From Bacillus sp. 103mf (GTDB taxonomy: Bacteria; Bacillota; Bacilli; Bacillales; Bacillaceae_G), in NCBI RefSeq assembly GCF_900116295.1, contig NZ_FPAF01000001.1, positions 124,001 through 188,000 of the forward strand: a stretch of DNA of 64,000 nucleotides. The letters run 5' to 3'. A program made the translations under genes and the position numbers. Below are positions 1 to 41,086 of this stretch, in pieces. Every line of letters begins with the position of its first letter. The stretch's first letter is position 1. Below the pieces are notes generated by a model, which was given only the letters and a program-made list of their open reading frames with translations, was not told the DNA's origin and did no database searches.

Positions 1-2922
1 TAATGTTAATTCTACCCCAAATTCTCTGTGAATTCTTGATATTAATCCCGTAGCATTTAAAGAATGCCCTCCCATTTCAAAGAAATGGGTATCAATATTA
101 ACTTGGTTAATTCCGAGAATATCCTTCCACATATTAGCCAATACAACCTCAGTTGCATTAAAATCCACGTTATAATTCGAAATGTTTTGTTTATTATCAG
201 TTTTCGGGCTGTTAGGAATTACAAGTTTAAACTCAGAAGATAAGGCTATATCAGGCCCTTCCGTTACTTTATCGATCCAATAACGTTCTTTCTCAAACGG
301 ATAAGTAGGTAGTGATACCGTATGACGCTTTTCTACTTGATGAATTTCTTTCCAATCAATTGGTATCCCTTGAAGCCACATATCTCCCAATCTGATTAAA
401 AGATAACGGTAATCCGAATATTGCTCCTTAGGGTGCCGCAACAATTGAATAGCAGATACTTGTTCTTCTTGATCCATTTTGTGAATAAAGGAACTGAGTG
501 AATTGCCTGGTCCAACCTCAATAAAAATCGGGTTCAACTCTTCTTGTAAACGCTTTGCACAATCCATAAAACGAACAGTTCCGCGCAGGTGATTTGCCCA
601 ATATCTTGGATTAGTAGCCTCTGCATTAGTTATCCAATCCCCTGTTACATTTGAAACAAACGGAATACTTGGGCTTTCAAAACAGAATTCTAACAATTTA
701 TCTTTAAAAGGCTGTACAATAGGATCCATCATAGCTGAATGAAACGCATGCGAAGTATAAAGTTTCCTAGATATGTGTCCATCTACAGTCAACCTTTTTT
801 CTAACGCATCCAGTGTATCTACTTTTCCAGATACAACACACAAACTAGTTGAATTGACAGCTGCAATCGATACATTATCTTCTAAATAATTCTTTAAATC
901 TGCTTCACTAAGTTCCACACTTAGCATAGAGCCTGAAGGTAAGCTTTGCAAAGTACTACCTCTGTACGCCACAATTTCTAAAGCATTTTCTAAGGACATA
1001 ACACCTGAAATTGCTGCTGCAGTATATTCCCCTATACTGTGTCCCACCATAGCTTCCGGCTTAATCCCCCAATGAATAAGTGTCTTTGCTAAGGCGTACT
1101 CGATACTAAAAAGAAGAGGTTGTGTAAATTCAGTTTGATTAATTAGATCCGAATCATGGTCCTTTGAGTCAGTAAATAAAACAGTACGAGGATCAACTCT
1201 CATAAACTGCTGTAATAGATTCAGACATTTGTCTAGTTCAGCTTTAAAAGCAGGAACAGTGTCATATAATTCTCTTCCCATATCAACGTACTGTGTACCC
1301 TGACCCGGAAATAAAAAGACAACAGGTCTGCTAGAAGTTTGGGAGCTTGCTAATTTCATCTTGTCTTTTCTATTTTCATTAATTATATCAAGCAGTTCTG
1401 GAACATCCTTACTTACAATCGCTTTCTTATAAGGAAAAACGTGTTTTCCTCTTTGAAGTGTATACGATACATCAGCCAGGTTAATTTGCTGATTTTTAAT
1501 AAGATACTCGGCAAAATTTGTAGTCATTTTTTCTAATGCGGCTGGTGTTTTTGCAGATAACAGTATAAGTTGATCAGAAGGTTCATCTGCAAATGATCTT
1601 TGGACTGACGGTGCTTCTTCTAAAATCACATGGGCATTCGTTCCTCCTATTCCAAATGAACTGACACCAGCACGACGAGGGAAATTTTTCTCTTCCCATG
1701 GAACCAGAGATGTATTCACAATAAATGGTGATTTCTCAAAATCAATTTTAGCATTCGGTTTTTTAAAATTGATTGTTGGAGGAATCAGTTTGTGCTGTAA
1801 ACTTAAAACTGTTTTAATAAACCCTGCAACACCAGAAGCATCATTCAAATGACCAATGTTAGATTTAACCGAACCAATTCGACAAAATCCATACTGTTTA
1901 GTCTGAAAAGCTTGTTTTAAGGCTTCAATCTCAATAGGGTCTCCAAGTGTTGTTCCTGTACCATGAGCCTCTAAATATGTGATTGTCTCTGGATCCACCT
2001 CTGCTATATTTAATGCTGTCTTAATAGCCCTTACTTGCCCTTTCGTACTCGGTGCTGTGTAGCCAACTTTTAGATTCCCATCATTATTAATAGCTGTTCC
2101 TTTAATAACCGCATAAATATGGTCCCTGTCTTCTAATGCATCTTCAAGTGTTTTTAGTACAACAGCTCCCGCCCCGTCTCCAAACACTGTTCCTTCTGCT
2201 CGGTCATCAAAAACACGGCAGTGGCCATCTGGTGAATGAATCATTCCTTCTTGATAAAGATAACCCGATTTTTGAGGAAGACGGATAGACACTCCGCCTG
2301 CTACAGCCATATGACAATCTCCGCTCAATAATGCCTGAGCTGCAAGATGAATGGATACCATCGAAGTCGAACATGCAGTCTGTACCATCATACTCGGTCC
2401 TTTTAAATTGAGTTTATAGGAAATGAGTGTGGTTAGATAATCGCGCATATTTAAAACAGCGGTTTCTAAAACTTTGGAATCTCCTCCTGCTTGTACACCT
2501 TGCAGAGTTCTCATCATCCAATCAGCATTAATTCCAGCACCAGCATATAATCCAATTTGCCCTTTGTATGTGAAAGGATCATAGCCAGCATCTTCTAAAG
2601 CTGTCCATACACACTCATGAAAAATTCTAAATTGAGGATCCATTATTACTGCTTCTTTTGGAGTATAATCAAAAAAATCAGCGTCAAATAAATCAATATC
2701 ATCTACTATTCCTTTTGCTTTAACAAAACGAGGATTCTTCAATAAAGACTCCTCTACCCCTTCACTTTTCAGTTCTTCTTCACTGAAAAAGGAAATTGAT
2801 TCTTTTCCATTTATAATATTGTCCCAAAATTGCTCAATATTTTTAGCTCCTGGAAAACGCCCAGCTATTCCAATTACAGCAATCTCTCCACCATGATAAT
2901 TATAAGTTTGATTTTTCATCAT
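1..2922 (-). CDS. amiM: Type I polyketide synthase, KS-AT-ACP (3' end outside window)
   Basis: Last polyketide module seen, read right to left and cut by the window edge after 974 codons. The KS (about residues 10-430) has the TACSTS nucleophile, EAHGTGT and NIGHLN motifs. The AT (about 525-830) has GQGSQ, GHSIGEY and SHAFHS, the malonyl-type signature. An ACP follows with GGHSL; its phosphopantetheine serine is about residue 954 (codon at 61-63). No KR lies between AT and ACP, so the beta-keto group stays, as expected for the C8 phenol oxygen of an amicoumacin isocoumarin. The start is a doubled ATG at 2922/2919 behind a weak GAGAGG; it overlaps the preceding gene by 23 bases, suggesting coupled translation. 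Letter assigned by gene order. A terminal release domain may lie beyond the edge. Confidence 0.93.
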   Translation of the reverse strand, partial: MMKNQTYNYHGGEIAVIGIAGRFPGAKNIEQFWDNIINGKESISFFSEEELKSEGVEESLLKNPRFVKAKGIVDDIDLFDADFFDYTPKEAVIMDPQFRIFHECVWTALEDAGYDPFTYKGQIGLYAGAGINADWMMRTLQGVQAGGDSKVLETAVLNMRDYLTTLISYKLNLKGPSMMVQTACSTSMVSIHLAAQALLSGDCHMAVAGGVSIRLPQKSGYLYQEGMIHSPDGHCRVFDDRAEGTVFGDGAGAVVLKTLEDALEDRDHIYAVIKGTAINNDGNLKVGYTAPSTKGQVRAIKTALNIAEVDPETITYLEAHGTGTTLGDPIEIEALKQAFQTKQYGFCRIGSVKSNIGHLNDASGVAGFIKTVLSLQHKLIPPTINFKKPNAKIDFEKSPFIVNTSLVPWEEKNFPRRAGVSSFGIGGTNAHVILEEAPSVQRSFADEPSDQLILLSAKTPAALEKMTTNFAEYLIKNQQINLADVSYTLQRGKHVFPYKKAIVSKDVPELLDIINENRKDKMKLASSQTSSRPVVFLFPGQGTQYVDMGRELYDTVPAFKAELDKCLNLLQQFMRVDPRTVLFTDSKDHDSDLINQTEFTQPLLFSIEYALAKTLIHWGIKPEAMVGHSIGEYTAAAISGVMSLENALEIVAYRGSTLQSLPSGSMLSVELSEADLKNYLEDNVSIAAVNSTSLCVVSGKVDTLDALEKRLTVDGHISRKLYTSHAFHSAMMDPIVQPFKDKLLEFCFESPSIPFVSNVTGDWITNAEATNPRYWANHLRGTVRFMDCAKRLQEELNPIFIEVGPGNSLSSFIHKMDQEEQVSAIQLLRHPKEQYSDYRYLLIRLGDMWLQGIPIDWKEIHQVEKRHTVSLPTYPFEKERYWIDKVTEGPDIALSSEFKLVIPNSPKTDNKQNISNYNVDFNATEVVLANMWKDILGINQVNIDTHFFEMGGHSLNATGLISRIHREFGVELTL

Positions 2923-5900
2923 TATCGCCGCCTCTCAATCTTTTGTTTCTTTGATTACGAACACGATTTTTTCTGCTATCTAATCCTGCTAGTACTACTT
3001 CCTTTTCATAATCCTCATTGCTATCTTCTTGAGTAGGATTCAAATGTTGTGCTAGTTCAGCTACTGACGGATAAGTAAATAACGTAACTACGGCTTCATT
3101 TGTCCCTAATTCTTTATTCACACGATTTGTTATTTGAACAATATCCAGGGAATTTGCGCCGAGATCAAAGAAATTATCATGAATGCCCACTTGCTCAAGA
3201 CCAAGGAAATCCTGGAAAATTTGGCAAATTACTTGTTCAATCCGATTTCTAGGAGCTACATATGGGTTTTTTAAATCCGGTCTTGTGTGTATTGATGTTT
3301 TCTTTTCTTCCTTGAGCAGTGTTCTTGTTTCGAAGCTAGTCCATTGATTGATCCGTTCCTCTAGGTCCCCTGTTGAAATCAATATATGGCGATTCTGAAC
3401 ATCTGATAATAAATAACTAAACAGATCCGCCCCTTCTTCTGGCATAATAGCAAGATTAGTAATGGATTCTCCGAGTGTCGAATCATGCTCTCCCCAGAAA
3501 TTCCAGGCATCAAAATTGATACAAATCCAAGGAGTTTTACTTTCCTGATTCATCCTTTGTGCAAAGGCATCCATATATATATTAGCTGCAGAATAAGCTG
3601 AAAAACCGAGTCCACCAAGCAGTGAACTAATTGATGAAAATAAAAGGCAGAAATCTACTTCCTCTCGCCGCAGTAATGTTCCAAGCACAGTTAAGCCTTT
3701 GACCTTTGATTGAAATTGATCCTCTCCTTGATCGATTTCTTTCGGGATATCTTTAATCGCTCTAAAAGATGTACTTCCTGGCAAACCAGCTGCATGAAAA
3801 ACACCATTTAATTGTCCATATGTTGCATGAATTTCTTTAAAAACAGCCTGCATTTGATGTAGATTACCAGAATCAGCCTGTAAAACTGTCACTCTTGAAC
3901 CTAGTCTTTCTAATTCTTTTATTTTCTTAATTTTTACTGTTATAGGATCTTTTTCTCCTTTTTTATTCATCCAACTTTCCCATTGATCACGAGGTGGTAA
4001 AGCACTTCTCCCTGTTAAAACCAACTGAACGCCGCCTGTTTTTGCCAGCATTTTCGATAAAACAAATCCAATACCCCCTAATCCACCGGTAATTAAATAC
4101 GTTCCTCCAGAACGAATCATTTTAGGTAGACCACCTTCTTTTGCCAGGCTCATCTTTTTATAATTCTGAACCCATCTGCGTCCATTCCGATATGCAATCA
4201 GTTGATCTTTTCCCGGATACTTAAGTTCAGACCAAATTTGCTTTAATAGATCTTCTTCTTTCCAGGTTATACGTATAGAAGGTTTAGCAATATCAATATT
4301 CCAGCACTTAATATGGCTATACTCCTGGGAAATGACTTTACAAGGTCCAAGCACTGTAGCCTTCGCAGCACATATATGTTCATCCCCAGTCACCTCATGA
4401 ATATTACTTGTTAAGATAAATATCCGACATTCTTTTATATTCTTTTGTATCCCGGCTGCTTGTGCCAAGAAAATTAAACTATAATAACCACTTTCATTGT
4501 GTACTTGAAATTGAATGTCTTGTTCAATTTCATCATTGTCTGAAATCCCCCATAAATGAATGACACGATTAGGCATCATACTATTTAATTCAATCGATTC
4601 TAGCAGGCGTTTATAATGACTGGATTTAGCTGGGTTAATCTTATAAACTAGTTCTCCCTCTTCTTCAAAGTCCACCCCTTTCTTTACAATAACCACTTGC
4701 TCTCCATCTTGTTCAATTTTTCGTATCAATTGATCACTAAAATCAGTTTCTTCATAAAAAATTAACCAAACCCGATTTTGTTGACTATCGATTTCTACCT
4801 TGTCATGTTGTATACGTGGACACTGTGGCTTACGTTCCCAAGAAGGTAAGTAAAACCATTCATCCATTGGTTTCTTTTTATCCTCGGATGAAGAATCAAA
4901 AGCATGAATTTCAATTAGCTTATTGGCTTCAATCCAATACTTTTTCTTTTCAAATGGATAAGTTGGTAGATGTATAATCTTTCTCGTTTCATTTTTATAA
5001 TATCCTTGCCAATCAATCTCACAGCCCGTCATCCATAGCCGACCTAAACATTTTAGAAAATATACATGATCATTAGCTTTTTCGTGAACATGTCTAACTA
5101 TATTCAGTACTTCCTGGTTATTTGTTCGTTTTTGATGCCTTTTGGCTAATGCTGTCAGACTATTTCCTGGTCCAATTTCAATTAATGTCACATGCTCATC
5201 TTTTAAAATTTGTTCTAATCCATCGTAAAAGCGTACTGTTTCGCGAAGATGCTCTGTCCAATAAGCAGGAGTCAGCACCTGCTCACTGTCAATCCATGTT
5301 CCTGTTAAATTTGAAATATAAGGAATACGTGGTTTTTGTAAATCTAATTCCTTAATAACCTTTTCAAATTCTTGAAGAACAGGTTCCATCATATATGAAT
5401 GAAACGCATGTGATGTATGCAAGTGGCGTGTGACAATCCCTTTCTCTGTAAGCTGGGCTTCAAATCGATTAATATCCTCTTTTTCACCTGACACAACACA
5501 TAAATTTTGAGCATTTACAGCAGCAATTGATAAATTCCCATATAACATTGGCAAAAGTTCTTCTTCCGAAAGTGCTACACTCATCATTGCACCTGGTTTC
5601 ACACTTTGCATCAGTTTGCCTCGCATCACAACAAGATCCAAAGCCGTTTCTAGAGAAAACACACCCGATAGACAGGCAGCTGTATATTCTCCTATGCTAT
5701 GACCTATCATATAATCCGGAATAATACCAAAGCTTTGCAAAAGCTTCGCAAGTGCATATTCAAAAATAAAAAGGAGCGGTTGTACTTTTGATGTTTGGGT
5801 TAAACTCTCAGTTTCGTTAGATTCAGAGAACACAATCCGTTTTAAATCTACTTCATAGTTATCTCTTACATAATCAAAACAGTAATCTACTTCCTGACGG

Positions 5901-8900
5901 AAAATTATTTCCTCCTGATATAAATCTTTTAACATACCAGTATATTGTGACCCCTGTCCTGAAAACATAAACGCAACCGTACGGCTATTTTTACTTTGTA
6001 CCCCTGTCATTTCTAAATGACCAGTATACCCTTGGTCAATCCATTCATTTTTGTTAGAAAAAACAACTGTTTTTCTATATGGAAATTGTTTTCTACCAAC
6101 TTGTAATGAATGTGCTATATCTTCAATAGGAACTTTCGGATGTTTACGTATAAAATCTTTCAAATTATCCGTCATTGTCTCCAAAGCCGTCTCTGTTTTC
6201 GCCGACAATAACAATAAATGATTGTTCCTTGACGCCTTCATACTCTCTTGATTTATCGGTTCCTCTATAACGATATGCGCATTGGTTCCCCCAATACCAA
6301 ATGAACTCACACCTGCTCTTCTTGGATAATCAGATTCCTTCCAATACATTGCTTGTTCAGTAACATAAAACGGCGTTTCGGCAAAATTTATATTCTTATT
6401 TGGTGTTTTATAATTAAGACTTGGAGGAATTGTTTTATATTTCAAAGCCAACACTGCTTTGAAAAGCCCTGCAATCCCAGCCGCACTGTTTAAATGACCA
6501 ACGTTACTTTTTACAGATCCAATTGGTATTAATGGTTGATTCTTATTTGCAAACACATGACCTAATGCTTCAATTTCTATTGGATCCCCCATTTGCGTTC
6601 CGGTCCCATGAGTTTCAATATATCCAATAGTCTGGGGGTCGATATTAGCACTCTTATATGCTTCCCGAATCGCATCTGCTTGTCCTTCTACACTTGGCGC
6701 TGTAAATCCAACTTTACGACTTCCATCATTATTTATGCCTATGCCCTTAATAACAGCATGGATTGTATGCCCTTCTTTAACAGCATCCTCATACCTTTTT
6801 AATAAAACAATCCCTGCCCCATCTCCAAATACTGTTCCCTTTGCATCTCCATCAAAAGGACGACAATGACCATCTGGGGATTGAATCATCCCATCTTGAT
6901 ATATATAACCGGATTTATGCGGTATTCCCACTGTAATCCCACCAGCAAGTGCAGCGTCACATGATCCATTTAATAATGCCTGACAAGCCATCCCAATGTT
7001 AACCAAAGAAGTCGAGCAGGCGGTCTGCATCGTAATACTCGGACCATGTAAATTTAATTTATATGCCAACTGTGTACTAAAAAATTCTCTATCGTTTAAC
7101 AACATAGAACTGAATTGCTCTGTCCCTTTCAAATTTGCTGCTGATCGATTTATCCATTCGAAATTTGGACTCGTTCCAGTAAATACACCGATTTTCCCAT
7201 TTACGCGCTCTGGGTCACATCCTCCATCCTCTAATGCTTCCCATGCACATTCATGCAAAAGTCTAAATTGCGGATCCATAAGCTCTGCTTCTCTAGAAGA
7301 ATACTGAAAAAAGTCAGCATCAAACATATCAATGTTCTCAACAATACCTTTTGCATTTACAAAGTTAGGATGTTTCATCAAGTTTTCATCCACACCAGAT
7401 GCTTTTAATTCTTCATCATTGAAAAAACTGATTGATTCTTTACCCTGAACAAGATTATTCCAAAATTCCTCTAACGTACTTGCACCTGGAAAACGTCCAG
7501 CCATTCCAATAATAGCAATATCACTTTGATTATAAAGCTCCTTATCATCTACTTGATTTTCATTGGCTCTTGAAGGTGGCTTTCTTTGTTTAAACGTCTT
7601 TTTATACTTCTGATGCAGATGCTTAGCAAGGCTATTAACAGTGGAAAACTGGTAAAGAAGAACCGTTTCTACTTTTAGTTGCAGCTTCTCAGTCAATTTT
7701 ACTGCTAACTGTGATATGTCGAGTGAAGATGCACCCAACTCAAAAAATGGTACTTGGTCATCTAATTCCCGAAATCCAAAATGATTCCTAATCATTAAAT
7801 TTATTTCTTTTTCAAGAGAAGAGAGCGGCATGAATGAGACAAATTCTTGAATTTCGGACTGATCTATGTTGAGCTTTATATCTTTTTGTACATTTGGAAA
7901 TGCGAAATCCTTTCTCGTAAATGGATAAGTTGGTAAAGGAACTTTCTTTATATGTTGAGAATGCTTTGAAGTTGTAAAATCAATATCCACACCTAGTTTC
8001 CACATCATCCCCAAGATTGATAATATAAAATTACCGCTTTTTGTGTCATCACTTATATTCTCCAAGCTATCTGCTACTTGATAGCTTGTAAAAACACAAG
8101 AGTCTGTCAGTAAACGCAAGTCAATATACACGATATTTTCTTCTTTTAAACTTTCCTTTATAGTCTGAGAAAATCTAATTGGTTTGCATATCTGAGAGGC
8201 CCAATATTGAGCATCAACCGTCTCAATATTAGTTAATATCTTCCCTGTCACTGAAGAAACCAATGGAATCTTAGGTTGATTCAACGGAACAGATTGAATC
8301 AACTTAAATAATTCATCAGCCGCTTCCCTCATAACAACTGACTGTAGTGCACAATCCATATCCAATAAATCCACATGGATCGCTTGTTCTTTAAGGCATT
8401 CCTCTAATCTACGTACGTCCTCTTCAATACCAGATACGACACAGTATTTTGCTTCTATCAGCGCCAATGATAACGTATTTTCCAAATAAGGAGAGATTTC
8501 TTGTTCGGATAAAGGAATTCCAATCATTTTTCCCGTAGGTGAGTAACTAATCAGTTCGCCCCTTTTATAAGCAATAGATATCGCATCTTCCAGCTTAAAA
8601 ACACCAGCTACACATGCTGCAGTGAACTCTCCAAATCCTCTTCCAATAAGCTTATCTGGCTTGATACCATTTTTTTGTAAAAAACACGAGGATGCATATT
8701 CCATAATGAACATTACGACATAAGAAAGACCGAGTGTATGTTTCATGCCAATTTTTTGGGGATTTGCAAAACATTCTGCAAAAAAACCATTAATATCTTC
8801 ATCTAAAACCGCTTGAGATAGTCTTAAATAAGTATTCACTTCTTCCTGAAATTGTCTGTCCAAACGGTAAAGCTGCATATAGCTTCTTAGTCTCTCTTGA

Positions 8901-10513: not shown

Positions 10514-10554
10514 AGATTTCACTCTCCTATCTAAAATTAAAGTGTGGGTTACAT

Positions 10555-17740: not shown

Positions 17741-17760
17741 TTTTTACTCACCTCTTTATA

Positions 17761-26862: not shown

Positions 26863-26881
26863 AAGATCATCTCCGTTCTGC

Positions 26882-28024: not shown

Positions 28025-28280
28025 GAACGTTCGCTCCTGTCTGTTTTTTTTCTATAAGCGCAACAATTCGATTGACTGTACTAAAATTCGCAATATTTAA
28101 ATCCTGATTATCTAGCTCAAATCCAAAATCCTGTTCCAAATAGTTTACAAGCTTCATTGCAAACAGGGAATTAACGAATCCCATCTCAAAAATATGACTA
28201 TCATTTGATAAATTTATTTCCTCATCAAAAACAACTAGATTTTTCTCAATATATTCTCTCACTCTTTCATGAAGATTCAT
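28011..28280 (-). CDS. amiG: Discrete acyl carrier protein for hydroxymalonyl unit (FkbJ/ZmaD-like)
   Basis: Acyl carrier protein of 89 residues with the phosphopantetheine site in GFVNSLFAM (Ser38). An Asn before the Ser, in place of the usual Asp, is typical of carriers in methoxymalonyl and hydroxymalonyl-ACP pathways. It would hold the glyceryl group delivered by the FkbH-like protein encoded just upstream while the two dehydrogenases oxidise it, then hand hydroxymalonyl to an AT domain. It needs a phosphopantetheinyl transferase for activation; the one near the cluster edge is frameshifted. ATG start with GAGGAG ribosome site. It overlaps the following dehydrogenase gene. Confidence 0.93.
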   Translation of the reverse strand: MNLHERVREYIEKNLVVFDEEINLSNDSHIFEMGFVNSLFAMKLVNYLEQDFGFELDNQDLNIANFSTVNRIVALIEKKQTGANVHENS

Positions 28281-28307
28281 TAGTCATTCTCCTCGCTTTT
28301 ATTAATT

Positions 28308-29363
28308 TCATTTCCCTGCAGATACTTTCATTCCAAAATCTGATACGACTTCAACATATGGTGGATATGCTTGAAGTTGATTTAGATCATTTTCAAATAA
28401 AATATAGCCTTCGGCATCTGATGCTACTTCTCTAAAGTTAGCAAACTTGTATGTGATATACATTACTCTATTACGATCTGTTTGTTTAAAATCAGCAAAT
28501 ACTTTTTTCCCTTGCTTTTTCGCTTCATTTAAAATGGCTGTTAATAAGATTGTTCCGACCCCTCTTGACATGACACGGCATGACATTAGCAGCAGTTTAA
28601 TATGCCATGCATTATTTTTTTCTTCTATTAAAGAGAGACCAATTTTTCCATATGAACCATACTTGTCATCCAACTCACAAATGAGTAAAATATGTGAGTC
28701 TGATACTCTGAAATGATTTAATTCCTTATAATCATACGTATAACCACTTGTATTTAATTGATTTGTGCGAACTGTCAATTCTTCAGCTCGACGTAAATCA
28801 TTTTCTTCAGCCTGCATAATGCTAAATTTCAAATTGAGTCCAGCCAGAAATTGCTCAGAAGGTCCTTCAAAGCTATCTTCATCCTTCTTTCTACAATCAT
28901 CCTCAAGATACATTTCCCTTCTTCTTTTAGCATCTTCCGTAATAAAATCAGGTTTTAATCTTATATCTTCTATTAGATCTTTATAATTTTTTGCATCCCA
29001 ACATGTTATAGTTGGATGCACACTTTGAACTTCTTCTCTTTCAAACACTTGGTCATCAATAAAGAGAAGAGTATCCTTATTAATGTTTAAATTCTTGCTA
29101 ATTTTGTCTATTGAAGTAGATTTAGCATTCCAATTGATTTCAGGATATAAAAAGAAGTGATCTATACCAAATTCTTTCAGTTTATTTAAAACAGTCTGTT
29201 TATCATTTCTACTTGCTATTGAATGTAAAATTCCTCTTTCATCAAGCTGAGTTAATATTTCTTTCATTGATTCTTTTAATTTCACCTCATCAGACTCAAG
29301 TAAGATACCTTCCCATAATGTATTATCTAAATCCCATACAACGCACTTCACTTTTTTATTCAT
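28308..29363 (-). CDS. amiF: FkbH-like glyceryl-ACP synthase (HAD fold plus GNAT-like domain)
   Basis: FkbH/OzmB-family protein that takes 1,3-bisphosphoglycerate, removes phosphate and loads a glyceryl group on the partner ACP, the first step to hydroxymalonyl-ACP. Residues 8-16 hold the HAD motif VWDLDNTLW with the nucleophilic Asp; LLFIDDQVFEREEV is the later HAD motif; the second half (about 170-340) resembles a GNAT acyltransferase, as in family members. I chose ATG at 29363 rather than GTG at 29381 because AAAGGAG lies between them, at proper distance from the ATG only, and family proteins begin directly at the HAD strand. The neighbours on both sides complete the pathway. Confidence 0.92.
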   Translation of the reverse strand: MNKKVKCVVWDLDNTLWEGILLESDEVKLKESMKEILTQLDERGILHSIASRNDKQTVLNKLKEFGIDHFFLYPEINWNAKSTSIDKISKNLNINKDTLLFIDDQVFEREEVQSVHPTITCWDAKNYKDLIEDIRLKPDFITEDAKRRREMYLEDDCRKKDEDSFEGPSEQFLAGLNLKFSIMQAEENDLRRAEELTVRTNQLNTSGYTYDYKELNHFRVSDSHILLICELDDKYGSYGKIGLSLIEEKNNAWHIKLLLMSCRVMSRGVGTILLTAILNEAKKQGKKVFADFKQTDRNRVMYITYKFANFREVASDAEGYILFENDLNQLQAYPPYVEVVSDFGMKVSAGK

Positions 29364-29377
29364 AGCATTTTCTCCTT

Positions 29378-30232
29378 TCACTCATAACTAAAGAATCCTT
29401 TTCCTGACTTTTTCCCAAGCTGACCTGCATCAACCATTTTTACTAATAGCGGACACGGACGGAATTTAGGATCTTTATAGCTTTCGTATAATACAAGAAG
29501 TGAGTTCAATATAGTATCAAGACCAATTAAATCAGCTGTTGCAAGAGGTCCCATTTTATGCCCAAATCCATCTCGAAAGATTTTATCGACATTATACGGT
29601 GTTCCTACTTGATCTTGAACCGTCCAGATACTTTCATTAATAGTCAACATCAATACACGATTCGAAACAAATCCAGGAAAATCATTTACAACAACTGGAT
29701 TTTTACCAAACGATTTTAAAAAGTGTTTGGTAGTTTCAACCGTATCATCAGATGTTTCATGGCCTTTAATTACCTCAACGAGTTCTTTTAAAGGAACAGG
29801 ATTCATAAAATGAGCGCCGATTACCTTATTTGGATAATGCATAAGTGCTCCAATCTTTGTAATAGAAATGCAACTTGTATTTACAAAATAGATTGTGTTT
29901 TCATGACAAATATCTCTTAATTTTTCATAGATTTTTTGTTTCACTGACCAATCTTCCGTTACATTTTCAATAATAATTTCTGCTCTTGCAAAATCGTTAA
30001 TATTTGTACTAAAATGAATATTTTCAAGTACCTCTTCAAGAGAGGACTTAATTACTCTTTTTCTTACTAGCTGCACTAGTTTGAACGTTTTCCTGATATT
30101 TTCTTCTGCACCTTGAAGTTTTTCTTCATTTATGTCAGTTAATATAACCTTATAACCATTCATTGATAAATCTAGAGCCATATCGGCACCCATAACTCCG
30201 GCCCCAACAACACCTACATATTTCATCTCCAT
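29378..30232 (-). CDS. amiE: 3-hydroxyacyl-CoA dehydrogenase-like enzyme (FkbK/ZmaG-like)
   Basis: NAD-dependent dehydrogenase of 284 residues, the length of 3-hydroxybutyryl-CoA dehydrogenases. The Rossmann motif GAGVMG is at residues 10-15, followed by MALDLSMNGYKVILTDIN; IGAHFMNPVP carries the catalytic His and GFVSNRVLM the C-terminal domain start. In FkbH-type pathways this enzyme oxidises the glyceryl-ACP alcohol. It overlaps the upstream thioesterase gene by 10 bases and is followed by the FkbH gene within 15 bases. No O-methyltransferase (FkbG) is present in the cluster part visible, so the extender is predicted to stay hydroxymalonyl. Confidence 0.92.
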   Translation of the reverse strand: MEMKYVGVVGAGVMGADMALDLSMNGYKVILTDINEEKLQGAEENIRKTFKLVQLVRKRVIKSSLEEVLENIHFSTNINDFARAEIIIENVTEDWSVKQKIYEKLRDICHENTIYFVNTSCISITKIGALMHYPNKVIGAHFMNPVPLKELVEVIKGHETSDDTVETTKHFLKSFGKNPVVVNDFPGFVSNRVLMLTINESIWTVQDQVGTPYNVDKIFRDGFGHKMGPLATADLIGLDTILNSLLVLYESYKDPKFRPCPLLVKMVDAGQLGKKSGKGFFSYE

Positions 30233-30939
30233 TTTCCTACCACTCCTGTTCGATTTAAAATATTATTAATATATGAAACTACTTCTTCAGGCAACTGATT
30301 GATAAAAAAATGATCCCCGTTAAATTCATAAAAACGACAGTGACTTTTTGTATATTGACCCCATTCATCTAAATCAAAAAGCACGGACGGCAAATCATGT
30401 TTTCCATAAAAAATAGAAATATCGCACTGCACAGAATGAACAGCTTGACACTTATATGTTTCTAGCAATTGAAAATCTGCTCTTAATACAGGTATAAAGA
30501 AGTCGAGAATTTGATGATTCCTCCTATATTCTTCAGGTACTCCCCCCATATTAATAATGGCTTCCTTGAGCTCGTTATCTGGCAATTGATGAAAAACTTT
30601 TTTCTCGGCGATATGTGGGGGAAAACGCCCTGAAAAAAATACATGCACAGGCTCTTTTTTCTTTTCATCTTTTATTTTTCTTTGTAATTCATATGCTAGA
30701 AGTGAACCCATACTATGTCCAAAAATCGCAAACTCCTCATCATAACTGAGATGCGGCTGAACCTGTAAGTAAAGATCTTCAACTACTGTCAGTACGTCAT
30801 GGAGCAACGGCTCCGCCATCCTTGTTCCATGTCCCGGTAATTCTAGCGCTACTAGTTCAAGCGACTTATCTAAAAATCTTTTCCACGAACTAAAGATTGT
30901 GCTTGAACTTCCTGCATATGGTAGGCAGAATAATTTCAT
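30223..30939 (-). CDS. amiD: Type II thioesterase
   Basis: Alpha/beta hydrolase of 238 residues similar to GrsT/SrfAD-type thioesterases that clear wrongly loaded or stalled acyl groups from carrier domains. Seen: FCLPYAGSS at the N-terminus, ELPGHG, the nucleophile elbow GHSMG (Ser76), an Asp in YGKHDLPS and the final GDHFF with the catalytic His. It starts ATG behind AAAAGGAG and overlaps the upstream BtrH-like gene by 4 bases and the following dehydrogenase by 10. It is a stand-alone protein, so it is probably not the chain-releasing enzyme. Confidence 0.94.
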   Translation of the reverse strand: MKLFCLPYAGSSSTIFSSWKRFLDKSLELVALELPGHGTRMAEPLLHDVLTVVEDLYLQVQPHLSYDEEFAIFGHSMGSLLAYELQRKIKDEKKKEPVHVFFSGRFPPHIAEKKVFHQLPDNELKEAIINMGGVPEEYRRNHQILDFFIPVLRADFQLLETYKCQAVHSVQCDISIFYGKHDLPSVLFDLDEWGQYTKSHCRFYEFNGDHFFINQLPEEVVSYINNILNRTGVVGKWR

Positions 30940-31925
30940 AACAAAGTACGCTCCTTTTCACAAGCATCCACTAACCACTCTAAATACTCTCTTTCCATTT
31001 GAATAATTCTTTCTAAAGGCTCTCCTATACGTGTCGCATAATCTAATATATGACTTTCTGAAAAAAACATTTTTGCAGCCTGATACCGAGCTTTTTCCCA
31101 TTCTTGTATCATTTCATTAAATAATTTAATAACGTTCTTATCCATAGATGGAAGATATGACAAACGATACTGCTCAATTTTTTTTGTATTCATTATTTGA
31201 TTAAATGATTGAAGTAACTTTTCGGAATTCGTGATTGTATGTAACCGATTGATAAAGAGCTTAAAACTTTCTAAACCATTAAACATTATCTTTATGTTTT
31301 TAGTCATATTTTGAAGAAAATAAACTTCTCGGTCTTGAAACATAAGTGCATTAGCTTTTTTTTGTTTTGAATCATGATAAAAAGCTGCATAAGAGTGAAA
31401 TGTATGATGAGGGTTAAAATAGTCATGAAATCCATAGTATCCCTTTTTTACATCTTGAAAAGAAATCTGACGAATTTCATATGACAAATTATCATAATAA
31501 CGGTTTTCTAAAATAGTAAACTTTTGTTCATTTTCTTGGATGCCAAAAATTAATACACAGTTGCGCTCATGCTTAGATAAGTATTCCGATCTGTAGGGCT
31601 GCGCATACATATCCATCCATATAATGATTGGTCTTTCTTGAAGCAGATCTTTTTTTAAATTCAAAATGAGATCATCATTTTTAAATTGTTTATCTGTAAA
31701 AATCCCTTGCAGATTCATTAGCTTTTCAGGATTATATACAGACATACTTTCCATTTTTAAGTAACCATCTTTGTCTGTAACATATGAATAACTGTCATTC
31801 AGGAGGTATGGATAAAGCTCTTCATGAAACGAGCGCACTACTGAAAAATAACAATTAAAAAAACAGCTTCGGTAAAATACGTCATTATATGGCTGAATAT
31901 GACGAATCTGCTTGTCAACACTCAT
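30936..31925 (-). CDS. amiC: BtrH N-terminal domain-like protein
   Basis: A 329-residue protein whose first half resembles the BtrH N-terminal domain family (butirosin acyltransferase BtrH): RSCFFNCYFSVVRS near the start with a candidate nucleophilic Cys at 21, a His in HERNCVLIFG, and ILENRYYD. Family members transfer an acyl group from a carrier protein or resemble papain-fold amidases; the substrate here is unknown. The C-terminal part is helical and charged. It lies between the prodrug peptidase and the thioesterase, sharing short overlaps with both, so it belongs to the operon. It may act in acyl transfer to or trimming of the pre-product; that is inference. Symbol by gene order only. 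Confidence 0.72.
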   Translation of the reverse strand: MSVDKQIRHIQPYNDVFYRSCFFNCYFSVVRSFHEELYPYLLNDSYSYVTDKDGYLKMESMSVYNPEKLMNLQGIFTDKQFKNDDLILNLKKDLLQERPIIIWMDMYAQPYRSEYLSKHERNCVLIFGIQENEQKFTILENRYYDNLSYEIRQISFQDVKKGYYGFHDYFNPHHTFHSYAAFYHDSKQKKANALMFQDREVYFLQNMTKNIKIMFNGLESFKLFINRLHTITNSEKLLQSFNQIMNTKKIEQYRLSYLPSMDKNVIKLFNEMIQEWEKARYQAAKMFFSESHILDYATRIGEPLERIIQMEREYLEWLVDACEKERTLL

Positions 31926-33423
31926 ATACTTTACCCCTTTTGGTTTCTAATTTAGTGAAACTTTTGATAATTCTAAATAAACAAACACCTATTAGCATTA
32001 CATAAAAACCAATAGATAAATAACGAAGTGAATAAGGCCCCCATATCAAAATCAAATCCCAGGGCAAACCTTTAAAGAAAACTTGCGAGATCAAACTCGG
32101 TATCAAGAAACCTAATATCAAAATAAAAAACCACATTGCTATCGATAAAACTACTCGGCGGTTTAGTACCTGCCACCCTCTTATTCCTCGGTGCATTTCT
32201 TTTATAAAAACGAATGCACGATACGTGATGATAAAATTAACAAATATACATAATATAAATACAATCACAGATAACGCGTCGATGAATTGAAAAGGATCAG
32301 TCATATTACTGTTTGCTTTTTCATTCGCTACTGTATGCAACACTTTCCTGGCTGCCAGCTCTGTATAAGCACTGTTCATATTTGCTAGAACACCAATAGC
32401 TAGGTTCTCTTCCGGCCGGATGATGAAAAAAGACGAATAATTGGGATTAGAACCTCCATGAAAAAGTTCTTGCGTATGATATTTATCCTTTTTTATATAC
32501 CACCCGTAGTTATAGTACACTCCATACTCCTCTGTTCTAACTTTCAAATCCGGTTCATGACTCTTTTTTATAATTGAATTGTTTTCGTTTAATTGATACT
32601 GAAGCCATTTTGCCAGATCATTTGCATTCATAATGATATAGCCTGCTGGTGTATTTCCTTTATATTCAGGTGCTTCGTATGCACTGGCTTTAAAAAAATT
32701 CAGTTTAAAACCTTCTGCAAATTCGTCTTTATATACATCCTGCCTTCCTGCATACGTACGTGACAAATTGAGTGGTTTAAAAATCTGCTCAGTTATATAT
32801 TCTTCATACGTCTGCCTTGAAATTTTTTGGATGATATAACCTAGTACGTCATAATTAATAGTAGCGTATTGAAATGCAGTTCCTGGCTTACGATCGAGTT
32901 CAATCCCACTGATATTCTCGACTGTGTGCTGTAAAGCTTTTTCACTAGAATCCGCTTTTATACGAGCAATGGATGATAAAGGAATACCACTTGTATGATG
33001 AATCAATTGTTCAATTGTTATTTCTTGTTTTTCTCCATGGTACATAGCATGAAATCCTGGTATATATCGACTAACAGGTGCTTTTAAATCGATTTTCTCA
33101 TTCTGAGCGAGCGTTAAGATCGCCAATGAAGTGAACGCTTTCGATGTGGACCCTAGCTCAAACAATGTTGAACTAGTAACCATTTTATTACTATGGTCAT
33201 TTATGTGACCAATCCCCTTGCTATAAATGACGGTATCTCCTTTAACAACAACAACTGACATACCTGGAATCTTACCTTTTTTCATTTGTTGTTCAATAAT
33301 TTGATTCAATGCATTGTAATCATTTTTCGCACTACCCACATCAGCATTCATCACAATAACCAATAAACAGAGAGTACATACTATCCAAACCTTTAATATA
33401 GAAGGTAATTTTTCAGCTCTCAT
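31915..33423 (-). CDS. amiB: Membrane D-asparaginyl prodrug peptidase (ClbP/XcnG/ZmaM type)
   Basis: Serine hydrolase of the beta-lactamase/S12 fold, 502 residues, close to ClbP (about 504). Signal peptide at about 11-32, SxxK at Ser92-Lys95 (STSK), Tyr186 in FQYATIN as the general base, HGGSN late in the hydrolase domain, then three membrane helices (about 380-402, 415-440, 455-485). This arrangement, an outward-facing catalytic domain anchored by three C-terminal helices, is that of enzymes which remove N-acyl-D-Asn from a pre-antibiotic during export. It begins where the D-Asn-making NRPS gene ends (one-base overlap, TAATG). The usual YSN triad member reads YAT. Activity on pre-amicoumacin is inferred from context. 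Confidence 0.93.
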   Translation of the reverse strand: MRAEKLPSILKVWIVCTLCLLVIVMNADVGSAKNDYNALNQIIEQQMKKGKIPGMSVVVVKGDTVIYSKGIGHINDHSNKMVTSSTLFELGSTSKAFTSLAILTLAQNEKIDLKAPVSRYIPGFHAMYHGEKQEITIEQLIHHTSGIPLSSIARIKADSSEKALQHTVENISGIELDRKPGTAFQYATINYDVLGYIIQKISRQTYEEYITEQIFKPLNLSRTYAGRQDVYKDEFAEGFKLNFFKASAYEAPEYKGNTPAGYIIMNANDLAKWLQYQLNENNSIIKKSHEPDLKVRTEEYGVYYNYGWYIKKDKYHTQELFHGGSNPNYSSFFIIRPEENLAIGVLANMNSAYTELAARKVLHTVANEKANSNMTDPFQFIDALSVIVFILCIFVNFIITYRAFVFIKEMHRGIRGWQVLNRRVVLSIAMWFFILILGFLIPSLISQVFFKGLPWDLILIWGPYSLRYLSIGFYVMLIGVCLFRIIKSFTKLETKRGKVYEC

Positions 33424-36400
33424 TACCTAAACAATGAATCCATTTCTTCTAAAGATATAGAGGCTGTCTCAAAATCGGATGGTGTAAACTCGGTATAATT
33501 CTTCTCACAGCAATGGTTTGTTATTAGCTCCAGCTGATACAGCAGTTCATCCATTAATTCCTCCATCTGCTGAATTTCATACGTGTGGTGACTGAATGCC
33601 AAATTAAAAGTAAGTTGTTGATTATGAATACTTGCAGTTAGATCCAAATGTGTAGTCAGTTGATTTTCTGGCGAAGACTCATTTCCAGAATTTAGATATG
33701 ATATACTGTAACCACATTTATCAGTTAACATTTGATCAATTTCTCCTAAATAATTAAATCTTAATTCTGGTTTTTGATGAGGAAGAAACTGATTGTTTAA
33801 GTAAGCCAAAATACCATAGCCCATCCCTTTTCGCGGAATCTGTCTGAATGTTTCTTTTACGGAACGTATATGTGCCGATAAACTCTGCTCCATACTGAAA
33901 TTAGCAGGAAACATTGTAGTAAACCACCCTAACGTTCTTGAAAAATCCATATTCCCTTCCATCTGATCTCTACCGTGCCCCTCTAATTCTAATGAGACGA
34001 TATTTTGACTTGTACATTGATGACAAGCACGTGTTAGAGCTGCAAGCAGCAGTTCATAAATTCGCGTTTGATAAGCTCTATTCGCTGTACTTAGAAGCTT
34101 CTCAGTCATACTTAAATCTAATTTCCGTTGCATTTTCATACTATCTTTTACTTTTTCCTCTCCTTTATTTTGATTATATAAAGGCTGGATGCGTTTCACT
34201 TCTTTTAGCCAATATGCCTGCTCACTTAATAATTCTTCAGATTTAGCTAATTCATTTACCTTCTCCGCAAATACTTGGTATGAATGAGTTTTTAAAGGCA
34301 ATCTCCATGTTTCACCCTTATGAATAGCATTATAAATATTCAGAAAATCTTCTATAAAAACTTGCCAAGATACACCATCAACAATAAGATGATGTGCTGT
34401 GAACAGCACCATAGTTTTATTTTTCGTTTTAATTAATCCAATTTTCAATAAAGTATCACTATATATGTCCATAGTTTCTCTTAATTGTGGTCCAAGTCGT
34501 TTTATTTCCTCATCTACTTGATCCTCAGTTAACAAGGATAAGTCATAACTTTTTATTTCTATATCCTGCATAGCGTTATCATAATAAAGTCTATTATTTT
34601 GGGTTTTTACCTTTATCCTTAATGCATCATGATGATTTAAAAGAATCTGTACAACTTCTTTTACTTCAGCCTCTCTTATTATATTTTCCGAAGATAACAT
34701 AACAGATTGATGCCAAAAAGCAGGTTGATTCAAACCTAAACACCAAAACCATTTTGTAATAGGCGTTTCCATTACTTCCCCTTCTGTTTGTGCTTGTGGA
34801 ATTTCCCTTACTGGTTGATTTCCCACAACACTTGCTAGCTCTTTGAATACGGGATAAGTAAAAATGTCGTTTGTTTTTAAATACAATCCTTTTTCTTTTA
34901 ATTTAGATACATATTGGATAGCTTTAATTGAATCTCCGCCTATTTGATAGAAATGATCCTCTAACTTAATATTCTGTCGCCCCAGCACTTCTTGTGCAAT
35001 TTCTAACAAAAGACCCTCTAATGCTTTTTGTTGGTTGTTCAATTCAAGATGACTACCCAAATGCTTTAAATCTAGAGTTGGCAGTGCACCTCTGTTTATT
35101 TTTCCATTTTGTGTCAAAGGGAGCCTGTCTACAGGAACAAAATAGGATGGAATCATAAAAGCAGGAAGCAACCTCGCAAGTTTTTTTCTTAAAAGAAAGG
35201 TTGTTGATTCTTCCGTCTGTACAATATATGCTACCAACTGTTTTTGCTTATGTTCATTATCAAACGCCACAACTACAGCTTCTTCAATTTCATTCAAAGA
35301 AAGTAATGTCAATTCAATTTCATCTAATTCTATTCGATAGCCCCGTATTTTAACTTGGTTATCTTTCCTTCCTAAATATTCAATTTTTCCATTTTCCAAT
35401 CTTTTCCCGAGATCTCCTGTTTTATACATCCTTTTGCCCTTAACAAATGGATTTTCCATAAAATTTTGTTCCTGTAAATTTAGTCGTTTCCAATACCCTT
35501 TTCCTATTCCATCTCCTGAAATAAACACTTCACCAATTTCCCCTGGCATTACTGGCTGACGCAACTCATCTAAAAGGTAAATCTCCGTATTTTGAATAGG
35601 CAAACCGATTGGAACAGATTTATGTAAATCCGTATTTACATCATATTTATGAATCATACATCCCACTGTAGCTTCAGTCGGTCCGTATTCATTAAAAATT
35701 GTGATTTGGTTCTTTCCTGCTTCTACTATTTTTTTTGCTAAATCCGTTGATAACTGCTCTCCCCCAACAATTAATCTCTTAACACTGGATTTTGATATAT
35801 CACAATCTTTTAGTAAAGATAAATGTGCAGGTGTTAATTTGATCACTGTCGTTTTATTTTCTCTAAATATGCGTTGAATAACAAACTCTGTTGTATCTTC
35901 TTGTCTATAAATAACAATTTTGCTCCCTGTTATTAAAGGCGTAAATATAGAAGTAACTGTTAAATCAAATGAAATGGATGAATATAAGGCAAAACTATCT
36001 TCATGAGATGTTATATAATTGTTAGAGGAGGATGTAATATAATTCACAAGATTTTGATGTGCAATAATAACCCCTTTAGGCTGGCCAGTAGACCCTGAGG
36101 TATAAATCATATATGCAGTATCTGTTGGGGAATTTATTGTATGCAAGTATCCCGCGTCATATGGTGTAAAAATACTCAACTCAAAGCGAATAATATTTCC
36201 ACTGAATGTACAGTTTTTTATCTGCTCTACGGTTGAATCTGTTACAAGAAAAGTTGATTCACTATCTTCTAATATAAAATCCATACGCTCTACAGGATAA
36301 TCAGGATCAATGGGTACATAAGCACCACCCGCTTTTAAAATCCCAAGCAGCAAAGCAATCATTTCTGGAGAATGATTCATACAAACTGCAACAAAATCGT

Positions 36401-37916
36401 TACGCTTTAAGCCTTTTTCTAAAAAATAACGGGCGATTTTATTTGAATATTCTTCTAATTCCTGGTAAGATAACACCTTATTTTGATCTTCAATTGCTAC
36501 CTTATTTGAATGTAATCTTACCTGTTCTTTAAATAGCTCATAAATAACTTTTTCTTTAGGATAATCAGTTTTCGTCTGATTCCACTCATAGATTTCTTCT
36601 TCTAACTCATGATTATTTAAAAGAGATATATCCTTCATACAAATTTCAGGATTCTGTAAAACATTTTCAATTAATATATTTAAGCGTTCATTTAGAAGAT
36701 CTATCTCGTCTTCCCTATAGTCTAATTGCTTATAATCAAACTGGAGTTCTATAGTCCCGCTCTTATCCCATTCCTTTATCACAATTTGTAAGGAATACGG
36801 TTGATATCCGTTATAAAGTTCAATATATTCTACTGAGTTCCCATCAATATCAGATACCATATTAGTACTATATGAATTAATATAGATTTGAAAAAGCTGT
36901 TCATAACCTTCTTTAGCTAACTGTAATTCTTTTACAAGTACGTCATATGGATAACGCTGATGTTGAAAATATTTTAAGTATGTTTTATTGATTTCTAATA
37001 AAAAAGTTGAAAAGGGTAAATTTAAATTTATCTTTTTTCTAAATGGCATTGTACTAACAGTCATTCCTGCTGTTTCCTTTTCCTTATTCCCTGACCTATT
37101 AAGAACAGGTGTTCCTATAATTAAATCATTTTGAGCAGATGCTTTACTTAAATAACAGAATACCGCGGCTGTAAATAGTGCATTAAGAGAGCATCCCTGT
37201 TCTTTTATGAACTGATAAATCTTTTTTGATTGGACAGCACCAATTTTGAATGTCTTTCGATTCCCATTAATTTGCTCAGAACTTTTCTGCAAATAGATTC
37301 CTTTCAAATCTGAAAATTCGTTCTTCCAAAAATCTTCATCTTTCTTAAATCGTGAAGATTCCATATATTTCTTTTCTTTTTCACCCCAGATATAGTAATT
37401 GTCGGATTTTTCAATGGGATTTTTTTCTTCTACGAGTTGCATATAAAGTTTCTCGATTTTATCAATAATAATTTTCATTGACCATCCATCAGCAATAATA
37501 TGATGACACTTGATAAGATAACCACATGTATTTTCATCAATCTTTAGTACAGCAAATTTAACAAGCGGATTTTCCAAAAACAAGAATGGTTGTTGAAATT
37601 CTCTTTCGGCCCATTGTAACATTCTTTCTTTCGGGCACTCATCGTTAGAAAAATCGTAGAATGGAATCTTTATATGATTATTTTTTTTAATATATTGTAA
37701 GACCTCCCCATCCTTACTAGTTAAATGGACTCTTAATGCCTCTGTTGTTTGAATACACGACTGAATTGCTTGCTCTAAATACATAAGGTTTAATTTTCCT
37801 GTTATTTGAATAATGCCACCAATATGGTTTATGGGAATATCTGGATAAAAATATTCAATGTTAAGTATTCTTTTTTGAGGGTGTGTCAACGGAATATATT
37901 GTAATTCGACAACCAA
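33423..37916 (-). CDS. amiA: NRPS starter: C-A(Asn)-PCP-E, makes acyl-D-Asn
   Basis: First enzyme of the line, 1497 residues from the preferred start. C (HHIIADG at about 138-144) with no module before it, so a lipo-initiation type; A (about 460-960) with YTSGSTGQPKG, NEYGPTE and NQVKIRGYRIELDE; PCP with GGDSI; E domain (about 1080-1490) with HHLIVDGVSW and RTLGWFT. Pocket residues read D-L-T-K-I-G-E-V-G, the Asn code apart from Ile for Leu at one site. The product is N-acyl-D-Asn, the leader removed by the peptidase encoded next. An ATG at 37994 has no clear ribosome site; a TTG at 37916 lies 5 bases after GAGGTGG and gives an N-terminus starting close to the C domain. Confidence 0.93.
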   Translation of the reverse strand: MVVELQYIPLTHPQKRILNIEYFYPDIPINHIGGIIQITGKLNLMYLEQAIQSCIQTTEALRVHLTSKDGEVLQYIKKNNHIKIPFYDFSNDECPKERMLQWAEREFQQPFLFLENPLVKFAVLKIDENTCGYLIKCHHIIADGWSMKIIIDKIEKLYMQLVEEKNPIEKSDNYYIWGEKEKKYMESSRFKKDEDFWKNEFSDLKGIYLQKSSEQINGNRKTFKIGAVQSKKIYQFIKEQGCSLNALFTAAVFCYLSKASAQNDLIIGTPVLNRSGNKEKETAGMTVSTMPFRKKINLNLPFSTFLLEINKTYLKYFQHQRYPYDVLVKELQLAKEGYEQLFQIYINSYSTNMVSDIDGNSVEYIELYNGYQPYSLQIVIKEWDKSGTIELQFDYKQLDYREDEIDLLNERLNILIENVLQNPEICMKDISLLNNHELEEEIYEWNQTKTDYPKEKVIYELFKEQVRLHSNKVAIEDQNKVLSYQELEEYSNKIARYFLEKGLKRNDFVAVCMNHSPEMIALLLGILKAGGAYVPIDPDYPVERMDFILEDSESTFLVTDSTVEQIKNCTFSGNIIRFELSIFTPYDAGYLHTINSPTDTAYMIYTSGSTGQPKGVIIAHQNLVNYITSSSNNYITSHEDSFALYSSISFDLTVTSIFTPLITGSKIVIYRQEDTTEFVIQRIFRENKTTVIKLTPAHLSLLKDCDISKSSVKRLIVGGEQLSTDLAKKIVEAGKNQITIFNEYGPTEATVGCMIHKYDVNTDLHKSVPIGLPIQNTEIYLLDELRQPVMPGEIGEVFISGDGIGKGYWKRLNLQEQNFMENPFVKGKRMYKTGDLGKRLENGKIEYLGRKDNQVKIRGYRIELDEIELTLLSLNEIEEAVVVAFDNEHKQKQLVAYIVQTEESTTFLLRKKLARLLPAFMIPSYFVPVDRLPLTQNGKINRGALPTLDLKHLGSHLELNNQQKALEGLLLEIAQEVLGRQNIKLEDHFYQIGGDSIKAIQYVSKLKEKGLYLKTNDIFTYPVFKELASVVGNQPVREIPQAQTEGEVMETPITKWFWCLGLNQPAFWHQSVMLSSENIIREAEVKEVVQILLNHHDALRIKVKTQNNRLYYDNAMQDIEIKSYDLSLLTEDQVDEEIKRLGPQLRETMDIYSDTLLKIGLIKTKNKTMVLFTAHHLIVDGVSWQVFIEDFLNIYNAIHKGETWRLPLKTHSYQVFAEKVNELAKSEELLSEQAYWLKEVKRIQPLYNQNKGEEKVKDSMKMQRKLDLSMTEKLLSTANRAYQTRIYELLLAALTRACHQCTSQNIVSLELEGHGRDQMEGNMDFSRTLGWFTTMFPANFSMEQSLSAHIRSVKETFRQIPRKGMGYGILAYLNNQFLPHQKPELRFNYLGEIDQMLTDKCGYSISYLNSGNESSPENQLTTHLDLTASIHNQQLTFNLAFSHHTYEIQQMEELMDELLYQLELITNHCCEKNYTEFTPSDFETASISLEEMDSLFR

Positions 37917-38055
37917 AAATGCCACCTCTTTCTTCAAAATGTAACCTGACATTATTGAACCATATTTTTCTAATATTGTACATTTCATTTCCATTTTTCT
38001 CTATATTTCTCAAGTTTTCTGTGGATACTTTTGTTCATTATTAAGACTTAGGGCA

Positions 38056-39678: not shown

Positions 39679-39798
39679 TCAATCCAAGCGCATTACGAAT
39701 CCATTTTCTCTTGCAAGTTCTTCTAAGAATACAGGTGTAACATATTGTTGTAATTCTTCTACAAATGGTTGTAGTTCATCTTGAATCGAGAGATTCAT
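39679..39798 (-). pseudogene. IS231-type transposase N-terminal fragment
   Basis: Reads [12 protein letters not shown] then [17 protein letters not shown], closely like the opening of IS231/IS4 transposases, then GFVMRLD and a stop after 39 residues. Full transposases of this type have over 450 residues, so all DDE catalytic residues are missing. It cannot transpose by itself. Confidence 0.82.
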
Positions 39799-39893
39799 CA
39801 AAAAACGTCATCCTTTCTAATCTAGCTTGCTTAGAAAGAATAACGTTTTTTGATACTTTGGGGGTATTAAAATGTCTTAAGTTGATGGGCATG
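39679..39893 (-). mobile_element. IS231 (IS4 family) left-end remnant
   Basis: The bases at 39875-39893 on the minus strand read CATGCCCATCAACTTAAGA, matching the terminal inverted repeat I know for IS231. About 75 bases inside it starts a transposase reading frame. Only the first 40 codons or so survive, after which the sequence is unrelated, and no second inverted repeat is visible toward 39456. It lies between the biosynthetic island and the housekeeping ddl gene. Bases 39894-40166 hold nothing I recognise. Confidence 0.8.
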
Positions 39894-41081: not shown

Positions 41082-41086
41082 TTTTT

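Follow-up and report, generated by a model that had tools for sequence, protein, structure and literature searches.

An amicoumacin-type biosynthetic gene cluster in Bacillus sp. 103mf, its relatives and its possible descent

We analysed a stretch of 64,000 nucleotides (the window) of contig NZ_FPAF01000001.1 from the strain deposited as Bacillus sp. 103mf, in which a run of minus-strand genes, read from position 37994 down to position 1, very likely constitutes a Bacillus-type gene cluster for the biosynthesis of amicoumacin. In fact, the listing of open reading frames (ORFs) resolves the run into 13 contiguous genes, counting an 89-aa gene for an acyl carrier protein (ACP) and the gene of AmiM, truncated at the window edge, and all 13 are open as far as they are seen. 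The contiguity and the domain content proposed in the initial annotation are borne out by the ORF listing together with Pfam, and Pfam also matches the order proposed there, namely a nonribosomal peptide synthetase (NRPS) with condensation (C), adenylation (A), peptidyl carrier protein (PCP) and epimerisation (E) domains, an S12 peptidase, five hydroxymalonyl-ACP and thioesterase genes, a hybrid synthetase, another NRPS and four polyketide synthase (PKS) modules. When the proteins are aligned to AmiA-AmiM of Bacillus inaquosorum KCTC 13429, around whose ami locus about 50 kb was fetched, all 13 have their best match at the syntenic place, collinear and on one strand, with identities of 48-80%, and chance therefore does not explain the correspondence. 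KCTC 13429 is the strain serving as ami reference in PMC5055758, and the gene sizes and order in the window fit Table 1 of that paper.

The run begins with AmiA (33423..37994, 1523 aa, minus strand as all genes of the cluster), a loading NRPS of the form C(starter)-A(Asn)-PCP-E with two Condensation, one AMP-binding and one PP-binding match in Pfam and 58% identity to the B. inaquosorum protein, where the first C domain is taken as the starter and the second condensation-type domain as E by their position and by the reference pathway. It is followed by AmiB (31915..33423, 502 aa), the predicted peptidase removing D-Asn from the pro-drug, which has the S12 beta-lactamase fold (PF00144, 4.8e-66; 48%), matches ClbP (1.4e-47) and further S12 chains in the PDB, and carries the SxxK motif as STSK at residue 92, where the reference AmiB has it at residue 87. 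AmiC (30936..31925, 329 aa; 49%) is a BtrH_N-type protein by a match to PF14399 (1.8e-6) slightly below the cut-off, and AmiD (30223..30939) is a type II thioesterase with a GHSMG motif (PF00975, 3.4e-38; 70%). The four hydroxymalonyl-ACP genes are AmiE (29378..30232), a 3-hydroxyacyl-ACP dehydrogenase (PF02737, PF00725; 76%), AmiF (28308..29381), an FkbH-like HAD-IIIC protein for loading of the glyceryl unit (PF13419; 76%) whose homologues adjoin acyl-CoA dehydrogenase genes, AmiG (28011..28280), the free-standing ACP of 89 aa seen as an ORF (80%), and AmiH (26882..28024), an acyl-ACP dehydrogenase (PF00441, PF02771, PF02770; 78%).

The remaining genes are synthetases with domains assigned by Pfam. 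AmiI (17761..26862, 3033 aa; 67% across 3040 aligned columns) reads C-A(Asn)-PCP, then ketosynthase (KS), acyltransferase (AT), ketoreductase (KR), ACP and a final C; AmiJ (15080..17740, 886 aa; 59%) reads partial C, A (Leu predicted) and PCP; AmiK (10555..15090; 64%) is KS-AT-KR-ACP; AmiL (2900..10522; 64%) is KS-AT(degenerate)-ACP-KS-AT-KR-ACP; and AmiM (1..2922; 72% across 975 aligned columns) begins with KS-AT-ACP and runs off the window edge after 974 residues, the reference AmiM having 2142 aa with a C domain further along. It can also be observed that AmiJ opens with the second half only of a condensation domain, in spite of the full one at the end of AmiI; its length is nearly that of the reference AmiJ (889 aa). 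The identities to B. inaquosorum are, more exactly, 57.9, 47.6, 49.2, 69.7, 75.6, 76.3 and 79.8% for AmiA to AmiG, and 78.2, 67.2, 58.5, 63.6, 63.8 and 72.0% for AmiH to AmiM. Against B. safensis, 10 of the 13 proteins score a lower identity, AmiG scores the same, and AmiB and AmiE score slightly above. Moreover, when genome contigs were scanned with a four-row AmiF alignment, the closest among the best 80 of 520 confirmed loci was B. inaquosorum KCTC 13429 (76%), and next among these 80 came five loci of B. safensis, B. zhangzhouensis, B. stratosphericus and B. pumilus (70-71%).

Divergently beside AmiA, on the plus strand, lies a phosphopantetheinyl transferase gene (38832..39455) with an ACPS domain in the ORF 38949-39455. 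A one-frame tblastn match at 38832-39440 covers residues 31-237 of a homologue of 239 aa, so about 200 residues are open, while stops stand directly upstream and the first 30 residues of the homologue are unmatched in that frame, which means that the gene is broken here or mis-sequenced. In B. inaquosorum, about 9 kb fetched beyond AmiA contain nothing that matches it, nor do about 2.3 kb of flank in B. safensis. A transferase of 236 aa stands at the same divergent place beside AmiA in a genome of the Bacilli, G741, and is weakly similar to that of the window (35% over 108 residues, tblastn E 1.5e-13). It might be supposed from the match beginning only at residue 31, with stops directly upstream, that the cluster looks intact while being silent, its carrier proteins perhaps unprimed. 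We regard this as rather unlikely: neither B. inaquosorum nor B. safensis shows a transferase match in the flank fetched, and each of the 13 biosynthetic genes has an open frame in the part that is seen. Priming of carrier proteins from elsewhere in the genome is usual.

As to the substrates, the adenylation pockets were read through motif anchors, whose positions we assume, such that nine residues are read and the tenth, Lys, is supplied. AmiA and AmiI alike have the code DLTKIGEVGK in the window, in B. inaquosorum and in B. safensis, which we take to be a code for Asn, in agreement with the reference pathway; the AmiJ code is DAQDLGNVQK in the window, DAQDMGNVQK in B. inaquosorum and DAQDLGAVQK in B. 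safensis. By this reading, the cluster would have two Asn-type domains and one Leu-type domain. Within the window the KR domains are confined to AmiI, AmiK and the second module of AmiL (AmiM being seen to residue 974), and, aligned with those of B. inaquosorum, they retain the Ser and the Tyr-x-x-x-Asn region; no KR was found in the 2087 of 2142 residues scanned of the reference AmiM. The earlier suggestion of a KR in malonyl modules 1 and 3 only thus holds by Pfam and by alignment, as far as AmiM is seen. The GHSxG serine motif is missing from the first AT of AmiL in the window, in B. inaquosorum and in B. safensis, and is present in P. solani (Paenibacillus) and G741; this degeneration is common to these Bacillus-type clusters, and is therefore not damage in the window copy.

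With such domains and codes, the assembly may be pictured as follows. AmiA would couple a fatty acyl group to Asn and then epimerise it; AmiI would add the second Asn, extend it by a hydroxymalonate unit made by AmiE-H and reduce it; AmiJ, by its near-identical code, would add Leu; and AmiK-M would bring in four malonates, the first and the third being followed by reduction. The Leu-derived carbonyl, once reduced, could provide the lactone oxygen at C3, the unreduced C4a would permit aldol closure, the reduced C6 would permit loss of water, and the unreduced C8 would stay as a phenol, so that aldol closure with loss of one oxygen would give the 8-hydroxy-dihydroisocoumarin. The placement of oxygens at C3 and at C4a/C8 and the loss at C6, as put forward in the initial annotation, is sound as bookkeeping when judged from the known structure. 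Finally, AmiB would strip the acyl-D-Asn off the N-acyl-D-Asn pro-drug to release active amicoumacin.

It might also be considered that the product is a relative of amicoumacin with an altered side chain, through the divergence of AmiJ (59%, one code residue changed), which is indeed among the less conserved synthetase genes (58.5%). Amicoumacins are reported to be carried or made by the lineage of KCTC 13429, whose pathway is given in PMC5055758, and by that of B. safensis (title of PMC12366304). The AmiJ code of the window stands one residue from that of B. inaquosorum (L for M) and one from that of B. safensis (N for A), and we consider an altered side chain improbable. A xenocoumacin-type cluster, with the same pro-drug logic and with Arg replacing Asn at the second position (presumably by the specificity of its second adenylation domain, XcnA), can practically be set aside, as the AmiI code DLTKIGEVGK is that of AmiA and of the reference AmiI and a second Asn-type code argues against it, AmiA and AmiI are separate genes as in the B. 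subtilis arrangement, and none of 25 ORFs from the AmiA-side flank that were submitted to Pfam resembles XcnM (saccharopine dehydrogenase) or XcnN (desaturase). The common pathway logic and the homology of the genes, described in PMC5055758, are what speaks for it.

Several points should be weighed against the assignment to amicoumacin. The product is a prediction from the genes; the end of AmiM falls outside the window, as would AmiN (a kinase) and AmiO (a phosphatase), whose expected place after AmiM is before position 1; and the identity is moderate only for some proteins, such as AmiB (48%) and AmiC (49%). Considering the 13 syntenic homologues, the near-identical adenylation codes and the conserved catalytic residues of the KR domains, the amicoumacin-type assignment of the initial annotation is upheld, and no family closer than ami turned up in our searches. 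In B. subtilis 1779 the pathway has been proven via heterologous expression and deletions of amiA and amiB (PMC4894447), and amicoumacin is described in four actinomycetes without a recognisable cluster in PMC9290621. Among the titles and opening lines of abstracts listed from open-licence papers, none describes such a cluster for a strain of the B. cereus group or for Paenibacillus.

The host of the cluster deserves attention before its descent. For the DNA of hutU the best identity is 80% among 397 Bacillales genomes drawn, 241 of which match at E 1e-100, the B. cereus-group content of the draw being uncertain, and the best matches belong to one family, of 19 genomes, in which B. inaquosorum is not listed. 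In megablast against plasmids, 25 kb of flank matched 18 Priestia and one Cytobacillus plasmids and none of the B. cereus group; against phages the 25 kb gave no megablast match. Priestia was tried as the host and found unlikely, the hutU of a Priestia plasmid being about 75% identical. A glyoxalase at 53504 is identical in 87 of 120 residues to PDB entry 2qqz, which we take to be from B. anthracis. Among the best 80 of the 520 AmiF-scan loci, none bears a B. cereus-group species name. Of the earlier suggestion of an amicoumacin cluster in a B. cereus-group background, the cluster is confirmed and the group label is not confirmed as worded, with hutU at 80% at most and no B. cereus-group plasmid match. 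Judged mainly from one gene, the host is probably Bacillaceae-like and outside Bacillus sensu stricto; a host in the B. cereus group is possible.

The phylogenetic position of the cluster is of particular interest, because B. inaquosorum and the B. pumilus-group genomes G002-G006 belong to one genus (that of G001), and vertical descent would thus join these two and leave the window outside. The trees give another grouping, where p-values of the approximately unbiased (AU) test were read from the IQ-TREE table in the column order that we presume. In the AmiI tree with nine Paenibacillus rows as outgroup, the window joins B. inaquosorum with a support of 99 in the SH-like approximate likelihood ratio test (SH-aLRT), the alternative having AU p 0.0006. 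The whole-cluster trees, from which AmiG was left out and in which AmiC was included only with G741, likewise place the window with B. inaquosorum as best, with P. solani as outgroup (12,142 columns; alternatives AU p 1e-41 and 0.00018), with G741, which by AmiI is nearer than P. solani (51% vs 43%), as outgroup (12,470 columns; 0.0006 and 0.0135), and with both (12,444 columns; 9e-6 and 0.00016). Altogether, the whole-cluster trees (12,142-12,470 columns) reject the grouping that vertical descent would give, with AU p of 0.0006 or lower. Among single genes, the same grouping is best in 7 of 11 with P. solani (A, E, H, I, K, L, M) and in 3 of the 5 tested with G741 (A, I, K).

By these trees the cluster forms a lineage of its own, with the B. 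inaquosorum cluster as its sister, in what is probably another genus or family, and an old horizontal transfer would be the simplest explanation. Against it stand several results of the same kind: AmiI with the nearer outgroup G741 does not reject the vertical tree (AU p 0.059), AmiA, B and D-H concatenated leave the fork open (p 0.052), AmiB, D, F and J favour other topologies with P. solani, that of AmiF being the vertical one, and so do AmiJ and AmiL among the five genes tested with G741, where AmiA is the single gene to reject vertical descent at the 0.05 level (p 0.005, as compared with 0.059 for I, 0.067 for J, 0.080 for K and 0.072 for L). An old duplication followed by loss would also fit. 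Base composition was considered as a sign of transfer and rejected: the cluster has 35.7% G+C, its flank 36.1% and the reference cluster 45.2%, and there is no sign of recent entry. The earlier proposal of transfer is thus favoured by the whole-cluster tree and by the AmiI tree with the distant outgroup, receives a mixed answer from single genes, and finds nothing in base composition or in a clear insertion element. Further, we may tentatively picture, as a scenario rather less probable than otherwise, a third Bacillus-type amicoumacin lineage which passed between subtilis-type bacteria and a separate lineage of Bacillaceae at a time so remote that base composition no longer shows it, which kept the relic of a dedicated transferase belonging to the ancestral cluster, and whose product could be a new congener.

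In this connection, the debris of IS231 mentioned in the initial annotation reduces to a fragment of about 200 bp (39693-39895) akin to DNA of IS4-family transposases, without a clear insertion element. The fragment is 70-74% identical to annotated transposase DNA of that family on Priestia and Peribacillus plasmids and, among the 15 of 21 matches listed, 86% to a B. arachidis plasmid in a part that bears no annotation; Pfam finds nothing in the local ORF. A consensus promoter scan gave 16 sites against 18.9 expected and is uninformative. Other genes of the flank include, on the minus strand, a GntR/aminotransferase (MocR-type) regulator adjoining a D-Ala-D-Ala ligase-like gene (40167-42535), the DNA of which is 72-74% identical to plasmids labelled Lysinibacillus, Stenotrophomonas and Niallia and 88% over part to a Priestia flexa plasmid, and an S66 peptidase of the MccF (microcin immunity) family (46646-47659). 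On the plus strand at 49662-50432, an ORF that weakly matches a nucleotidyltransferase precedes a distinct ORF carrying the KNTase C-terminal domain, and the pair looks like a split gene of the kanamycin-nucleotidyltransferase type.

To place these results in context, the cluster is real, apparently complete as far as seen, and in a new lineage; it extends a known family in its standard gene order and represents neither a new kind of system nor a new principle. A proven antibiotic pathway is extended to a lineage probably outside Bacillus sensu stricto, the usual producers being B. subtilis and B. pumilus, and a sister sequence to the reference cluster helps to separate required from incidental residues. 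Moreover, the G741 cluster and the Paenibacillus versions, the latter with an altered second adenylation code, point to places where relatives of a different chemistry may occur.

The occurrence of the relatives is uneven. AmiC at E of 1e-30 or lower is found in 12 of 44 genomes in the genus of G001, in 3 of 397 Bacillales genomes, all three being in the list of that genus, and in 8 of 398 Bacilli, five of them weak (26-29%) and probably of other clusters; G741 was found in this way. At E 1e-60 AmiB is matched in 0 of the 19 genomes of the family nearest by hutU, the same query and threshold matching 11 of 13 Paenibacillus. In the plasmid collection, positions 1-25000 of the window have no megablast match and the AmiB/AmiC stretch no distant match, which means no near copy on the plasmids searched. 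The scan of genome contigs with AmiB alone found no relative, although the scan with the AmiF alignment did, and no relative was found in viral contigs scanned with AmiF. As an observation apart, a plasmid of Alkalihalophilus pseudofirmus (L002:15360-37786) has a hydroxymalonyl-type PKS cluster with a BtrH_N gene and a phosphopantetheinyl transferase.

Compared with the known systems, the xenocoumacin and amicoumacin clusters of Xenorhabdus have, by their description in PMC5055758, the same pro-drug NRPS-PKS logic, and they are set apart by genes that are rearranged, split or fused. In Paenibacillus, ami-like loci have AmiA, B and D-I in order in 9 of 9 (L011-L015 and L017-L020, L016 being left out for its different AmiA-B order), and differ by having no match to AmiC (0 of 9) and by an AmiI pocket FDALTFE in 9 of 9, unlike the Asn type; the second code of P. 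solani is DAFLVGAVIK, and with such a differing second adenylation code another product is expected. G741 (L120-L123) has all 13 ami genes in order, the divergent transferase and Asn-type pockets in AmiA and AmiI, and it differs by identities of 34.5-67%, by a first AT of AmiL which keeps GHSIG and by 53.6% G+C over 68 kb. The clusters of the B. pumilus group (L006-L010) have AmiA-AmiI in the same order including AmiC in 5 of 5 loci, AmiJ-M having been checked in B. safensis, and are more distant, with AmiI at 60-61% and the AmiJ code of B. safensis given above. The cluster of B. subtilis 1779 is likened through its description in PMC4894447 alone. Genome G806, in the genus of B. inaquosorum, carries this set of 13 genes, likewise collinear, with identities of 46-80%, its AmiM being fetched in part. 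The ami cluster of B. inaquosorum KCTC 13429 agrees with that of the window in its 13 genes, their order and strand, the AmiA and AmiI codes, the KR pattern and the degenerate first AT of AmiL, and differs in protein sequence (48-80% identity) and in base composition (45.2% vs 35.7% G+C); the transferase remnant stands beside AmiA in the window and has no match in the fetched reference flank, and the host of the window cluster is probably of another genus.

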